Below are positions 1 to 15,266 of a DNA stretch of 36,938 bases, one piece after another. Both the position numbers and the translations under genes were made by a program. The stretch covers positions 1 through 36,938 of the forward strand of contig JAHEDH010000017.1 in assembly GCA_024641285.1 (NCBI GenBank), written 5' to 3'. Position 1 is the first letter of the stretch; every line of letters starts with the position of its first letter. The notes under the pieces were generated by a model that worked only from the letters and a program-made list of their open reading frames with translations, searched no databases and had not been told where the DNA came from. The DNA comes from a bacterium (lineage in GTDB: Bacteria > Actinomycetota > Acidimicrobiia > Spongiisociales > ZC4RG35).

Positions 1-1159
1 CACCCTGACCGCCTCCACCGCAGAGGGCGGCCGCACCGATGCCGCCGCCGCGTGCTCTGAGCGCATGGATGAGCGTGACGACCAGTCGCGCCCCTGTGCA
101 ACCGATTGGATGTCCGAGTGCTACTGCTCCGCCGTTCACGTTCACCTTCTCTTTCGGGATGTCCAACATCTGCGCCGACCACAACGCCACGGCGGCGAAT
201 GCCTCGTTGATCTCGACGAGATCGAGATCCGAGGCTTCCAGCCCGGCCCGCTTGAGTGCCACTCTGAGTGCTTCGGCCGGGCGCTCGTGCAGCGTCGGGT
301 CGATCCCGCCGATCTGGCCGTATGCCAGGATCTCTGCCAGGACCGGGGAGCCATTTGCATCGGCCGCCTGCCGGTCGGCCACCATCACGGCTGCGCCGCC
401 ATCGGAGATCTGTGAGGCGTTGCCTGCGGTGATCGTGCCGTCGGGGATGAAGGCCGGCTTCAACCGACCAAGCGAATCGGCGGTGGTGCCAGGCCGGATG
501 CCCTCATCGGTGTCCATGACGACCGGGTCACCCTTGCGCTGGGGGACAGGCACTCCGATGATCTCGTCGGCGAACCGCCCCGACTCCGAGGCGGCCAGTG
601 CCCGGTCGTGGCTCATTGCCGACCACTCGTCCTGTTCTTCTCGGGTGATCCCGAGTCGTGCGTTCTTGTGGTCGGATGACTCGCCCATCGTGCAGTGATC
701 GAACGCACAGAACAGCCCGTCATGTGTCATCACATCGACGAGCGTGGCGTCGCCCAGGCGGGCACCCCAGCGAAGCTCGTGGAGGACGTGTGGGGCGTTT
801 GACATCGATTCCATCCCGCCGGCCATCACGAAGTTCGCCTCGTCGAGTCGGATCGCCCTCGCCGCCATCCCGATCGCCGCCATTCCCGACAGGCAGACCT
901 TGTTGACGGTGATGCTCGGCACCGTCATGGGGAGACCGCCACGAACGGCGGCCTGTCTGGCGGTGATCTGGCCTTCGCCCGCTTGGAGCACCTGACCGAA
1001 GATCACCTCGTCGACGGCCCCCGGGTCGACTCCGGATCGCTCGGTAGCCGCGGCAATCGCCGCACCACCGAGATCGACCGCTCGGAGTGGGCTCAACCCG
1101 CCCCCGTATTTTCCGATCGCGGTGCGAGCCGCACCGACGATGACAGCGTTCTCAGACAT
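1..1159 (-). CDS. acetyl-CoA C-acetyltransferase (thiolase), 3' end cut by window edge
   Basis: The minus-strand reading frame starts at ATG 1159 (MSENAVIVGAARTAIG) and runs off the left edge after about 386 codons, so only the last few residues are missing. It is a degradative/biosynthetic thiolase that condenses or cleaves acyl-CoA in the cytoplasm. Visible landmarks are the acylated Cys at residue 89 in NKVCLSGMAAIG, the GGMESMSNAP block, NEAFAAVALW, the catalytic His in GGAVALGHPIGCTGAR, and the start of the C-terminal CGGGGQG loop. Residue content and order match full-length family members of about 390 aa. The gene is divergent from the secreted protein at 1346. Exact chain-length preference (acetoacetyl-CoA or longer 3-ketoacyl-CoA) cannot be told from sequence alone. 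Confidence 0.93.
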   Translation of the reverse strand, partial: MSENAVIVGAARTAIGKYGGGLSPLRAVDLGGAAIAAATERSGVDPGAVDEVIFGQVLQAGEGQITARQAAVRGGLPMTVPSITVNKVCLSGMAAIGMAARAIRLDEANFVMAGGMESMSNAPHVLHELRWGARLGDATLVDVMTHDGLFCAFDHCTMGESSDHKNARLGITREEQDEWSAMSHDRALAASESGRFADEIIGVPVPQRKGDPVVMDTDEGIRPGTTADSLGRLKPAFIPDGTITAGNASQISDGGAAVMVADRQAADANGSPVLAEILAYGQIGGIDPTLHERPAEALRVALKRAGLEASDLDLVEINEAFAAVALWSAQMLDIPKEKVNVNGGAVALGHPIGCTGARLVVTLIHALRARGGGIGAAALCGGGGQG

Positions 1160-1172
1160 GGGTCGACACTAC

Positions 1173-1200
1173 TTGACGTGTCAGGCCCTGCGCCTACAGA
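1173..1200 (+). promoter_or_regulatory. possible sigma-70-type promoter in the thiolase / secreted-protein divergent region
   Basis: TTGACG at 1173-1178 and TACAGA at 1195-1200 are separated by 16 bp, facing the secreted Cys-rich protein at 1346. The leader would be about 140 nt. This is a pattern match only, in GC-rich DNA where such boxes also occur by chance. Confidence 0.3.
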
Positions 1201-1345
1201 GGACGTCGCCGACGCATTGGACAATGACAGTCGGAGTGGACCGACTCGAGCCTGCTCTAGATCGAGGGCCATCGCAAGGGACTTCCGACCCTGGTGCCGG
1301 GGGGGAGGCCCGACTGTGTCCTCGGTCGAAAGAGAGGGGAAGACC

Positions 1346-1996
1346 GTGTTGTCCTCGTTGAAATCAGGGCGACTGAACAAGGCTGTCGCCTTGTTTGCGG
1401 CGATGGCGGCGCTTGCCGTGTTGATCATTCCAACCGCGGCATTCGCTGAGAAGCCCGAGAATCAGGACCTTGTCAGAGTGGTTCGATCGTCAGATGGCTA
1501 CGACCTCGTTCGCAGGTACGTCGACCAGAAACCGGCAGCCGTGCAGGAGATCGACGAGGCGACCTCGCTGGTGATCTACGACTTCAAGACTTGGCCCGGG
1601 AAGAGCGATGACTTTCAGGGCTTCCATCCATACGTCATGTTCTTCGTAGACAACGAAAGCAACGCGGTCGAGGGGTTCCTCGCCGTTCCTGACGCCGACG
1701 GGCGCGCAGATCCAGTGCCACTCACCATTGAAGCTCTATCCGAGGTCGGACCGGATGTAGTCCAAGCTCAATCGGTCGTGGCCACGGCGACATGCTGGTG
1801 GTGCAGTGAAACCACCTACATACCGGGCCACATGTCTAGCAACACTGGGTACAACGCCTGCACGGCGGCGTGTGCGGTGGCAGGGGGGTCGTGGCCCGTG
1901 AGGGCCGCATGTATGGCCGCCTGCTGGGGCCTGTACTACGTGCCGGGTCACACTGTCTGCACTGAGTGGTCGTCGGGACCTCCTTGTCCCGAATGA
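1346..1996 (+). CDS. secreted protein with halocin C8-like Cys-rich C-terminal domain
   Basis: 216 aa. I chose GTG 1346 because a purine-rich AGAGGGGA at 1333-1340 lies 5 nt upstream and because it places a signal peptide at the N-terminus (Lys/Arg-containing n-region, hydrophobic stretch about residues 13-30, AFA|E cleavage near 34). Residues 35-145 are Cys-free and acidic. The last ~67 residues carry eight cysteines (150, 153, 172, 176, 189, 193, 205, 214) in the order CxxC, CxxxC-xxAGG, CxxxC, C, C. The CTAACAVAGG core resembles CTIGCSAAGG of the archaeal peptide antibiotic halocin C8, whose precursor also fuses an N-terminal immunity region to the peptide. Secretion and disulfides are visible expectations; antimicrobial activity is inference. 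The next gene encodes a small membrane protein that could be an accessory or immunity factor. Confidence 0.75.
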   Translation: MLSSLKSGRLNKAVALFAAMAALAVLIIPTAAFAEKPENQDLVRVVRSSDGYDLVRRYVDQKPAAVQEIDEATSLVIYDFKTWPGKSDDFQGFHPYVMFFVDNESNAVEGFLAVPDADGRADPVPLTIEALSEVGPDVVQAQSVVATATCWWCSETTYIPGHMSSNTGYNACTAACAVAGGSWPVRAACMAACWGLYYVPGHTVCTEWSSGPPCPE

Positions 1997-2011
1997 GATT
2001 TCGCGATTGAT

Positions 2012-2046
2012 CCGGAGTCGGCGGCCCGCAGGCCCGCCGACTCCGG
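2012..2046 (+). terminator. strong hairpin after the secreted Cys-rich protein
   Basis: A perfect 13-bp inverted repeat (CCGGAGTCGGCGG at 2012-2024, complement at 2034-2046) with a 9-nt loop begins 15 nt after the stop codon at 1996. There is no T run, so it may be a factor-dependent or attenuating terminator or an mRNA-stabilising end. It immediately precedes the ATG at 2053, which argues for the downstream start at 2077 for the next gene. Confidence 0.65.
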
Positions 2047-2076
2047 AGTTGAATGGGAGTTGCATCAGGAGTTCAG

Positions 2077-2469
2077 ATGGAGGGACGCTCAACCCAATCA
2101 GATCCGCTCCCAGGTCGGTCACGCGCGGCGCTCGTTGGCTACTCGGCCATGATCATCGTCGGTGGAATCCTGATGGGACGTCGGTTCGGCTACGCCCCGA
2201 GCGCCGAAGTCGGCGCCGGAGCTGGGCTCTTTCTGGCGATCGGCGGGTTGGCGTTGGTTTCTTGCCTGGTCGATCGGCGCACATTGGTCCCGGTTGGAAT
2301 TGCACTTGCTGGAGGAGTCGCAGGAGCGTACGCGGCCTACTGGGGGCTCGACGAGCCAGCACCGACCGTCTACAGCTTTGCATTGACAAGCGCCGCTAGC
2401 TTGTTCATGGCCGCGGATGCGATTCGCATGCTGTTCCGGGTGCGTCGAGCGGATACGGCACAAACCTGA
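2077..2469 (+). CDS. small four-helix membrane protein
   Basis: 130 aa of unknown family. The start at 2077 has AGGAG at 2067-2071 with 5-nt spacing; an in-frame ATG at 2053 sits next to the terminator-like hairpin and is less likely. Four hydrophobic segments are visible, roughly residues 18-37 (LVGYSAMIIVGGILMG), 44-66 (AGLFLAIGGLALVSCLVD), 70-92 (LVPVGIALAGGVAGAYAAYWG) and 98-115, ending in a short basic tail. No catalytic motif is seen. It lies 80 nt downstream of the halocin C8-like gene in the same direction. A role as immunity or export partner is a hypothesis from context only; an unrelated housekeeping membrane protein is equally possible. Confidence 0.65.
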   Translation: MEGRSTQSDPLPGRSRAALVGYSAMIIVGGILMGRRFGYAPSAEVGAGAGLFLAIGGLALVSCLVDRRTLVPVGIALAGGVAGAYAAYWGLDEPAPTVYSFALTSAASLFMAADAIRMLFRVRRADTAQT

Positions 2470-2543
2470 TAACTCGCCTGGCGTGGGCCGGGTCTGCTAG
2501 TTCTGCGTTTGCCGAAGTTCGTAGGCGGGCATGCTCCACACCC

Positions 2544-3749
2544 ATGACCCGTCTCGCCACACCGACCTTGCCCGAAGCCGTCGACTGGACCGCCGAGTAT
2601 CTCGGGCACCTGACGTGCGATGCAGTGGCGAAGTCGGGGCGGTTCACCGGCGGGCAGCAGGTCGCCGATGAGGCACTGGCAGCGTTCGACGTCAGCGGCT
2701 ACGCATCGAAGCGCAACGAGGTGTGGCCCGAGTCACGACGAGGTGCCTCTGCGCTCAGCCCCTACATCCGTCACGGACTGCTGCAGCTCCCGAGGGTGTG
2801 GGATTCGGTGGCGGGCGGGCCATCCCGCGACGTGAAGAAGTACCGGGACGAGCTCAACTGGCAGGAGTATTCGCGCCACCTCTACGCTCGGTTGGGGACG
2901 GCGACGCGGGATTGGATCAGATACTCCGTCGAGTCGACCGAGGTCTGGGATCAGGAGCCGTGGTGGCGTGAGATGGCATGCGTGGATCTGGTCGTCTCGG
3001 AGCTCGAGAACGACGGCTGGCTGGTCAACCAGACCCGGATGTGGCTGGCGTCACAATGGGTCAACCGTGGGGACGGGTATTGGCGTGATGGCGAGGACCG
3101 GTTCTTCCGGCATCTGCTGGACGGCTCGCGGGCAGCGAACCGGCTCGGATGGTTGTGGACGACCGGAGGCGGGACCGGTAAGCCCTACGGCTTCAGCCGA
3201 TGGCAGGTCGAGAAACGCGCAGAGGGTCTCTGCGAAGGCTGTCAGCTCAACACCAACTGCCCGATCCAGGAGTGGCCGAGTGATCCGAGGGTCGAAAAGG
3301 TGTCCGAGCCGGCGGGCCTGCGAAGTGACCCGGATCCGGACGCCACCGGCGGGCCGATCGACGTCGACCGCCGCGCACAGCCCGATGTGGTCTGGCTCAC
3401 CGCTGAGTCCCTCGGGGACGACGATCCGGCGTTGGCGGCCAACCCCGGCCTTCCGGCGGTGTTCGTGTTCGACGAGCCGCTCCTCGACAGACTGCGGCTG
3501 TCCGGCAAGCGATTGGTGTTCCTGGCCGAGACGCTGGCAGATCTCGCCGAACGGCGAGACGTCGAGGTCCATCTCGGCCGTCCCGTCGACGTACTGGCCG
3601 GCCGGGCGCCCGCCGTCACGTTTGCGCCGGTGCCCGGCTGGCGGCGCATCAGCGGGCAGTTCGACCTCGCCGAGATCCATCCATTTCCGTGGCTGCGTCG
3701 CCCTAGGGGAGGTTCGGTGGCATCCTTCTCGCAATGGCTACGAAGTTGA
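2544..3749 (+). CDS. photolyase/cryptochrome-like flavoprotein with permuted domain order
   Basis: 401 aa. Residues about 30-240 match the FAD-binding (catalytic) domain of DNA photolyases and cryptochromes: GRFTGGQ, SALSPYIRHGLL, YRDELNWQEYSRHLYARLG, ENDGWLVNQTRMWLASQWVN, DRFFRHLLDGSRAANRLGW and WTTGGGTGKPYGF. A short Cys segment, CEGCQLNTNCPI, follows. Residues about 280-395 then resemble the Rossmann-like antenna domain (VVWLTAESL, DDPALAANP, LPAVFVFDEPLL, RLVFLAETLADLAERRDVEVHLGRPVDVL), which in ordinary photolyases is N-terminal. The order is therefore FAD domain first, antenna domain second. FAD binding is well supported; repair substrate (CPD, 6-4, or none) is not. The gene's last 16 nt overlap the following protease gene. 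No clear ribosome binding site precedes ATG 2544. Confidence 0.8.
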   Translation: MTRLATPTLPEAVDWTAEYLGHLTCDAVAKSGRFTGGQQVADEALAAFDVSGYASKRNEVWPESRRGASALSPYIRHGLLQLPRVWDSVAGGPSRDVKKYRDELNWQEYSRHLYARLGTATRDWIRYSVESTEVWDQEPWWREMACVDLVVSELENDGWLVNQTRMWLASQWVNRGDGYWRDGEDRFFRHLLDGSRAANRLGWLWTTGGGTGKPYGFSRWQVEKRAEGLCEGCQLNTNCPIQEWPSDPRVEKVSEPAGLRSDPDPDATGGPIDVDRRAQPDVVWLTAESLGDDDPALAANPGLPAVFVFDEPLLDRLRLSGKRLVFLAETLADLAERRDVEVHLGRPVDVLAGRAPAVTFAPVPGWRRISGQFDLAEIHPFPWLRRPRGGSVASFSQWLRS

Positions 3750-13258: not shown

Positions 13259-13957
13259 TCAGACGATCGTCGGGCCCGCAGTCACCCAGACGTATTGCTG
13301 GAGCATCGAGGCCATCGGATCCTCGGTGGCCTCATCAGAAGTCAGTGAGTCCAGCGACGTGGTGAGGATGGCTGTGATGAGCCCCATCAGATCGACCTCG
13401 ACGACTGGGCCTGCTGCGTGGACAGCCGCCGGGGCGACAGGCTTCGTTTCGGCGCTCGTCGGAGCCGGGCTCGATGAAGCCGGGCTCGACGGCGCCGGAG
13501 ATGGAGCCGGAGCGGGGCTCGGGGTGGGAGCCGGAGCGGGGTCGGGCGCGGGTGCTCCGGCGCCGACGCAGAACACGACGGACACGTACTGCCTGCCGTC
13601 GGCTCCTTCGGCCACACCGGTGCCCATCGACGTCCACCCTGGGTCGGTGAGTTTCGACCAGTGATTCGGGCTCGCGCGGAACCCGGCGAAGATCAGGTCG
13701 ATCGACGGTCCGGCGCCGACGATCTCTGCTGCCCGTGAGCAGACCGAGGTGAGGTGACCGATCGACGCGTGGCTCACCGACTGGGCGCCGGCCTGCCGGG
13801 CTGCCGACGAGTTCGCCGTGGCCTCGGCATCGGATTGGATGGCCAGGCCCGAGCCGCGGGCCCCGGCGACCGCGGAATCGACCGCGTCGGCGGACGCGGG
13901 GAGGGCTCCGAAACACAGCACGAGGCAGAGCAATGCGGCGAGGGGGGCGAGTCGCAC
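13259..13957 (-). CDS. secreted CAP (SCP/PR-1) domain protein with Pro/Ala linker
   Basis: 232 aa from GTG 13957, chosen because it places a signal peptide first (VRLAPLAALLCLVLCFGALPASA|DA). The frame stays open upstream but then crosses the tRNA-Pro gene, so the long version is not real. Residues 30-135 resemble the CAP domain core: SAARQAGAQSVSHASIGHL, EIVGAGPSIDLIFAGFRASPNHWSKLTDPGWTSMGTGVA and QYVSVVFCVG. The usual catalytic-like His of SH and the H of NHW are present. A low-complexity PAPDPAPAPTPSPAPAP-type linker (about residues 136-170) leads to a ~60-residue tail of no known fold. CAP proteins are extracellular, and their bacterial roles are mostly unknown. Confidence 0.8.
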   Translation of the reverse strand: MRLAPLAALLCLVLCFGALPASADAVDSAVAGARGSGLAIQSDAEATANSSAARQAGAQSVSHASIGHLTSVCSRAAEIVGAGPSIDLIFAGFRASPNHWSKLTDPGWTSMGTGVAEGADGRQYVSVVFCVGAGAPAPDPAPAPTPSPAPAPSPAPSSPASSSPAPTSAETKPVAPAAVHAAGPVVEVDLMGLITAILTTSLDSLTSDEATEDPMASMLQQYVWVTAGPTIV

Positions 13958-14093
13958 GATATGCGATCCTAGGCCTGGAGACCTATACGGGCAAAGGGAT
14001 CCGACCCACTTCGGTCTGATCGAGCCGAAAATGGTCACTCGCATAGTCCTCCATTGGATGGACCGCCGTGGACCGGGTATCCTCGGCGGACAT

Positions 14094-14170
14094 CGGGACG
14101 TGGCGCAGCTTGGCAGCGCGCAGCGTTCGGGACGCTGAGGTCGTGGGTTCAAATCCCACCGTCCCGACCA
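14094..14170 (+). tRNA. tRNA-Pro (anticodon CGG), CCA encoded
   Basis: 77 nt fold as a standard cloverleaf. The acceptor stem CGGGACG pairs with CGTCCCG, the D-stem GCGC pairs around AGCTTGGCA, and the anticodon stem CAGCG/CGCTG carries loop TTCGGGA (anticodon CGG). The variable region is AGGTC, and the T arm GTGGG-TTCAAAT-CCCAC is followed by discriminator A and encoded CCA. It reads CCG codons. A decayed integrase gene converges on its 3' end, so this tRNA has been an attachment site. Confidence 0.97.
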
Positions 14171-14843
14171 GAGAAACCCCAGGTCAGGGCCGCCCTTCGG
14201 GGCGGCCCGCTGGTTTGGTACCCGTTTCCATCGCGCGTCCATCGCGCGTCAGATGAGGCCTCTTCCGCTGTCGTGGTCCTTTTCGGGAGGAATCGGTCGC
14301 CGTGGCGGTCCGCGGCGTGGCGGTCGGCTTCGGTGCTGGCTTGGGCGTAGATACCGAGTGTGAGCCTCGGGTCGGTGTGACCGAGTCGGGTCTGGGCGGT
14401 ATTGATGTCGATGCCTTCGAGTACGCGGCATTCAGGACCGCGGCGAGTGTCTGGTAGACCCGACGCACCGACCGTGGCGCCAAACGCTGGGACCAGTCGT
14501 TGACGCACTGCTGGATGTCGGAGGGGGTGAGTGACCCGATCGGCCTGTCTCCGAGAGCGGGGAGGATGTGGGTTCGGAGTGCCGACTCGTCGCAGGCTCG
14601 TGACGATGGACGTTTGGCGGGGTTGGAGTCGAGCCACTGGGCGGCGGCGGCCCGGAGCGGCTCCTCCGCCCGACGGGGATCCAGCCAGGATCCCCGACGT
14701 CGGCTCGCTCGCTCGTCGGCTTCGAACGCCTCTGCTTCACGTCGGGTTCTGAAGGTTCTCGTATAGACACGGCCGGATGGGTCGCGCAGACGGAGGTCGT
14801 ATCGTCGGGCACCATCTTTGGTCCACCGCAGGTGAATGCTCAC
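14149..14843 (-). pseudogene. internally deleted tyrosine recombinase (integrase) abutting tRNA-Pro
   Basis: From GTG 14843 the frame encodes an Arm/SAM-like N-terminus: VSIHLRWTKDGARRYDLRLRD, RTRREAEAFEADERASRRRG, then the core-binding region (RACDESALRTHILPALGDRPIGSLTPSDIQQCV and YQTLAAVLNAAYSK). Near 14414 the frame breaks. The other minus frame then encodes the very C-terminus of the catalytic domain: GIDINTAQTRLGHTDPRLTLGIYAQAS, with the LGH and the Tyr nucleophile region. The intervening catalytic part with the conserved Arg, Lys and HxxR is gone, so roughly 150 residues were deleted with a frame change. The C-terminal frame stops at 14149, inside the T loop of tRNA-Pro, the arrangement left by integration into a tRNA 3' end. 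The product cannot be active. Confidence 0.85.
14187..14208 (+). terminator. hairpin downstream of tRNA-Pro
   Basis: GGGCCGCC (14187-14194) pairs with GGCGGCCC (14201-14208) around a CTTCGG loop, 16 nt after the tRNA. Only a weak T-rich tail follows. It is positioned to end tRNA-Pro transcription and lies inside the integrase remnant. Confidence 0.6.
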
Positions 14844-14994
14844 CCTGAGCCGTCGGCGACCGACTCGGCCACCGGACTTCGGAGCTGGGTCACGAACTCG
14901 ACGACGGCTCGGCTTTGTCGTTGGGCATACACCACGGAGGTTGAATCCGACCCCATCGTTGACCAACCAGCTGGGTTGATCCCGCCGATGACGT

Positions 14995-15266
14995 TCAGAC
15001 GAAATGGGCGAGCCATCGCACCAGCACGAAACCTGGCAACACGAGCAGGCTGACATAGGCAATGAACCGAAACCGGCGACTCGACAGTGGCAGTTGGTGC
15101 GCCGCCACCACACCTATCAAACCGACGGGACCCAAGAAAAGAAGCCAACCGTCCCGTTCCTGATAGCAGTGTCAGTGAAACCGATGTCCGCAATCGGCGA
15201 TCCAGCCCAGCACGCAAACACACCCCCGACTCCCACTATGAATCGTGCTGGCCGTGTGATCTCCAT
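14995..15266 (-). pseudogene. frameshifted small membrane protein
   Basis: Starting at ATG 15266 the frame reads MEITRPARFIVGVGGVFACW followed by AGSPIADIGFTDTAIRNG. It then loses coding character and meets a stop, while the neighbouring frame continues as GWLLFLGPVGLIGVVAAHQL, a basic patch and FIAYVSLLVLPGFVLVRWLA before TGA at 14995. Joined, this gives a ~90-residue protein with three hydrophobic helices. The total span (272 nt) is not a multiple of three, consistent with a single indel around 15150. I do not recognise the family. It could be a decayed accessory gene or a sequencing error. Flanking stretches 14844-14994 and 15267-15437 show no gene. Confidence 0.45.

Follow-up and report, generated by a model that had tools for sequence, protein, structure and literature searches.

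The window (36,938 nt) contains a two-gene locus consisting of gene A, coding for a predicted secreted precursor, and gene B, coding for a membrane protein, with an inverted repeat between them (Table 1). Gene A begins with a GTG codon preceded by a GAGGGGA-like ribosome-binding site, and its coordinates include the stop codon. The N terminus of its product carries a predicted signal peptide with K/R residues in the n-region and a hydrophobic core at residues 14–32 (mean hydropathy 2.4); as read from the sequence, this peptide is Sec-type, since a twin arginine is absent. A stretch of about 115 aa (residues 35–149) contains no Cys, and all eight Cys (residues 150, 153, 172, 176, 189, 193, 205, and 214) fall within the final 67 residues. 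Translation and Cys positions confirm the initial annotation, which described a 216-aa protein with a signal peptide, a middle lacking Cys and an eight-Cys tail of about 67 residues.

Table 1. Features of the A–B locus, in coordinates of the window.
Feature	Position	Strand	Basis
Gene A, 216-aa secreted precursor (predicted)	1346..1996	+	translation, ribosome site, signal peptide, N-domain periodicity
Signal peptide of A, residues 1–34, predicted cut between AFA and EKP	1346..1447	+	read from sequence
Cys-free N-domain of A, residues 35–145, candidate pro-part	1448..1780	+	
Cys-rich tail of A, residues 150–216, candidate peptide	1793..1993	+	
A–B intergenic inverted repeat, arms of 17 nt	2011..2047	+	
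Gene B, 130-aa membrane protein, candidate self-protection protein	2077..2469	+	ORF, four hydrophobic segments
Segment missing at the matching site in same-genus genome G001	about 1190..2520	.	flank alignment; ends approximate

It is very improbable that A is a spurious ORF created by GC-rich sequence rather than a gene. Long spurious ORFs are present in the GC-rich DNA here, no homologues of A were found and the codon use of A is not informative; this explanation is opposed by the signal peptide, the ribosome-binding site, the coding periodicity of the N-domain (GC1/2/3 = 0.69/0.35/0.70, with GC2 only 0.35), the clustering of Cys in a patterned spacing, and a 1.3-kb segment that would otherwise be unexplained.

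Gene B lies 80 nt downstream of A on the same strand. Its start at 2077 is preferred to a less likely one at 2053 owing to the presence of AGGAG at about 2068, just ahead of the former. The predicted product contains four hydrophobic segments (residues 17–35, 47–65, 69–87, and 98–116) and is encoded behind a strong hairpin, as the initial annotation had it. The arms of the hairpin are 94% paired, and the 87-nt region has a predicted folding energy of -40.4 kcal/mol (z = -3.75); no T-run follows it. This inverted repeat is a possible terminator, attenuator or RNA-stabilising hairpin and could separate A from B transcriptionally. A sigma-70 promoter scan gave no match, and no dedicated protease or transporter gene adjoining the pair was identified among the ORFs read.

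At the matching site in G001, the one same-genus genome compared, there is no trace of A or B: the matching flanks are 238 bp apart, versus 1379 bp here. The thiolase and photolyase-like neighbours are found in G001 in the same order, with flank DNA identity of 83% and 77%, and the A–B segment showed no direct repeats. Among 34 genomes of the family, just 2 gave a hit to the photolyase/cryptochrome-like gene (2544–3749, PF03441) with a cut-off of E ≤ 1e-40. Since these two are the genomes compared, gain of A and B here and their loss in G001 are indistinguishable, while the codon use of both genes, atypical relative to their neighbours, leans towards gain. Paired absence in G001 together with atypical codon use is typical of exchangeable conflict genes. 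Elsewhere in the window, an ORF on the minus strand (14187–15113) contains the N-terminal and central domains of a phage-type integrase (PF14659, PF22022) with no match to the catalytic domain and lies next to 13262–14242, which has no Pfam match; this is possibly a broken or frameshifted integrase.

The Cys spacing of the tail of A is 2-18-3-12-3-11-8. Its core, C3C-12-C3C-11-C, occurs once in the window and in none of 100 shuffles, and the pattern C2C-18-C3C-12-C3C is absent from all others of 50 related genomes. The motif C-x4-Y-[IV]-P-G-H occurs twice, one copy on either side of the CxxxC/CxxxC core, which suggests a pseudo-symmetric or metal-binding element. The close resemblance to halocin C8 claimed earlier for the CxxC...CxxxCxxAGG pattern proved weak, the canonical family spacing being 2-7-3-7-13-7-8-8-5 with ten Cys and A having eight. 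From a divergent archaeal sub-type of the TIGR04449 family (2-19-3-12-3-11-7-5), A differs by a total deviation of 2, the minimum being taken across 13 member spacings, those of L059–L064 not among them, and every subset of eight Cys. A deviation as low as this was reached by 5 of 2520 reorderings of A's own spacings, 62 of 20000 random loop sets with the motifs kept, and 0 of 20000 random Cys placements. Compared with the full range of the sub-type, 2-(18..19)-3-(11..13)-3-11-7-5, A fits save for the absent Cys3 and Cys10, with the inter-Cys residues adding no support, and the fit includes the CxxC element and the subsequent spacings as well as the CxxxC/CxxxC hairpin. All p-values for A against the halocin C8 family are generous, because halocin C8 had been picked from the Cys pattern in the first place.

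Searches with curated profiles, which the initial annotation had set as its own refutation test, were negative. TIGR04449 and NF040679 gave no match above cut-off to A, its tail or the whole genome, and PF22862 (the halocin 8-like N-terminal domain) matched neither A nor its N-domain. The positive control L033, which we take to be halocin C8, its tail being identical to the halocin C8 sequence used as query, scored 57.6 bits with TIGR04449 and 164 bits with PF22862; the latter domain is also missing from sub-type members L045, L061, and L063. In the phylum of the window, 396 genomes were scanned and none contains a TIGR04449 match over the cut-off. Weak actinobacterial hits to TIGR04449 and A3 (L015, L050–L053) are out-of-frame or unrelated ORFs. 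No known domain matches A. No homologues of A were found in GTDB contigs by a scan with near-exact peptide words, whose reach is limited to close relatives, nor in viral contigs, plasmids, phages or PDB sequences, nor in 99 relatives and 395 genomes of the class; weak hits in the last two sets look, on inspection, like frame or composition noise.

Against a profile of all family tails A scores 7.5 bits, which 11 of 3000 shuffles reach; with Cys held fixed, the tail score is reached by 347 of 3000 shuffles, so the inter-Cys residues contribute little. Taken by itself, the sub-type tail profile does not support A (162 of 3000 shuffles as good). These results bear on the possibility that A is a true, very divergent halocin C8-like homologue by descent, carried into an actinobacterium without Cys3 and Cys10 of the sub-type, which we consider rather unlikely; it concerns ancestry rather than function and overlaps with the explanation favoured below. 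Common descent is opposed by profile–profile comparison (hhalign probability 0.2% for A versus 13 full-length members), by a larger full-family profile (p of only 0.035 for A), by an N-domain profile (168 of 3000 shuffles match A's score), by the curated models, all without a match, and by the lack of bacterial intermediates, none having been found between A and the archaeal proteins. In its favour are the Cys spacing, weak colinear matches of the N-helix and tail of A to a family HMM (p = 0.016, one comparison), the closest pair, L063 (BLASTP E = 0.007 for this pair alone, out of about 21 compared), the N-helix of A, VVRSSDGYDLVRRYVDQK, set by eye beside VIKNSDALSELRQTVSEK of L063, and the common downstream membrane gene. 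By these comparisons formal membership of A in the halocin C8 family is not shown.

The gene layout was compared with that of archaeal TIGR04449 family members, 21 loci being used for the count; these include close relatives, so the numbers are not fully independent. The sub-type spacing, with or without additional Cys, occurs in L035, L040, L043, L045, and L063; L059 and L062 have sub-type tails with slightly longer spacings, and in L061 and L064 two of the Cys have been lost. Sub-type members score at or near the TIGR04449 cut-off. A small membrane partner (≤150 aa, ≥2 predicted TM segments, start ≤150 nt downstream on the same strand) directly follows the precursor in 13 of the 21 loci. The same scan gave 2 of 18 after other ORFs of ≥200 aa in those loci and 0 of 27 behind probable genes from the window and from G001 (2 of 45 together). 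The partners lie at -20 to +132 nt 3' of the precursors in L031, L032, L035, L038, L039, L043, L045, L046, L059, and L061–L064. They tend to be 55–70 aa with 1–2 predicted TM segments in canonical-tail members and are mostly of 93–136 aa with 3–4 TM in the sub-type, except in L035 and L043 (2 TM) and L040 (none found). Gene B, a small same-strand membrane gene directly downstream of A, fits the 3–4 TM kind. It has no significant resemblance to the partners of L045 and L063; where B matches the L032 partner locally (2 of 500 shuffles as good), the shared part is a hydrophobic stretch.

Like L035, L040, L043, L045, L059, L062, and L063, A has the build of a secreted precursor with a Cys-poor N-part and a tail comprising CxxC, a CxxxC-12-CxxxC core and then an 11-residue spacing, with a membrane protein gene immediately downstream as in most of them. 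Unlike them, A is bacterial, has eight Cys and no profile match, and similarity outside the Cys is not significant. Halocin C8 itself (HalC8/ProC8) shares with A a one-gene precursor with a signal peptide, a Cys-free N-part and a Cys-rich C-terminal peptide of about 70 residues. It differs in having ten Cys, a PF22862 N-domain and Tat export, the predicted route of A being Sec-type, and no small membrane partner was found at its locus in the scan.

Single-sequence AlphaFold2 models were of low confidence (pLDDT 49 and 56). The N-domain was modelled as strand-helix-four strands and the tail as strand-helix-helix-strand, with each CxxxC within a helix. The structure prediction proposed in the initial annotation yielded a tail model that fits a stapled hairpin but is not proof of one, and Foldseek searches with the models produced no significant match. 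Luffin P1, a plant alpha-hairpinin, appears among the weak Foldseek hits of the tail with an E of 9.5, which is not significant. Alpha-hairpinins, which are plant antimicrobial peptides and protease inhibitors, form a CxxxC-(10..15)-CxxxC helical hairpin, as A may; they are eukaryotic, 30–45 aa long and have only four Cys, whereas A has an additional CxxC and C-x8-C. Hairpins of this CxxxC/CxxxC type are a simple scaffold recurring through convergence, and the likeness of the tail to alpha-hairpinins is regarded as convergent.

A could instead be a secreted protein whose disulfide-rich domain is structural or inhibitory, such as a binding protein, a cell-surface protein or an inhibitor of proteases, with B an unrelated membrane protein that follows it by chance. 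The Cys pattern being the sole sequence signal, the Luffin P1 hit and the strong hairpin between the genes are consistent with such a role, which is the main alternative, though a somewhat doubtful one: A matches no known domain, A and B were gained or lost as one unit, and the CxxC element and later spacings fit the archaeal sub-type as well as the hairpin does.

A function like that of halocin C8 is favoured by the sub-type spacing match, the existence of 3–4 TM partners of B's size and the absence of A and B from G001. We give an even chance to the proposal that A and B are a putative bacteriocin-like precursor and its membrane self-protection partner. The signal peptide of A, its Cys-free middle and the confinement of all eight Cys to the tail also speak for it. 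This functional part of the earlier suggestion of a halocin C8-like bacteriocin locus is favoured, while family membership is unproven and fails on formal criteria. The missing family profile match, the low hhalign probability, the small contribution of the inter-Cys residues, the lack of significant resemblance of B to the L045 and L063 partners, the hairpin between the genes and the failure to identify an adjoining protease or transporter gene among the ORFs read count against the proposal. The product of A would be exported through Sec with removal of the signal peptide, and an extracellular protease would release the C-terminal approximately 67 residues. The active parts of halocins C8 and H4 are likewise C-terminal fragments freed by proteolysis (PMC12893001). 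The released peptide would form a disulfide-stapled helical hairpin, with CxxxC facing CxxxC, flanked by the CxxC element and the C-x8-C end, and would act on the envelope of related competitors. In halocin C8 the immune peptide, HalI, is reported to be the N-terminal part of the precursor (PMC11509114), in agreement with the initial annotation; the Cys-free N-domain of A could similarly hold the tail inactive or aid self-protection, and the membrane protein B would shield the producer cell.

The two-gene feature is confirmed and its functional interpretation is reasonable; the locus is a candidate of interest but falls short of a discovery. If the interpretation is right, an archaeal peptide antibiotic has a bacterial counterpart here, accompanied by a candidate immunity gene open to testing. 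The more specific reading, in which A is a relative of halocin C8 exported through Sec by a bacterium and yielding an eight-Cys helical-hairpin peptide, and B is its dedicated immunity protein with four TM segments, is unlikely and is put forward tentatively; if true, it would bring actinobacteria into a superfamily of archaeal peptide antibiotics and suggest that the 3–4 TM partners are its immunity proteins. Since the N-part of the precursor itself is credited with immunity to halocin C8, the recurrent archaeal membrane partners raise the question of their role. Studies by Makarova (mBio, 2019) and Mei (J Bacteriol, 2008) reportedly bear on archaeocin partners and HalI.

Genome G775, which contains L040, also holds L065, where only a tail end nearly identical to the L040 tail is present, followed by a 3 TM ORF running off the locus. 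No such partner was seen at L040 itself, and L065 may represent a second copy that is broken or incompletely assembled.
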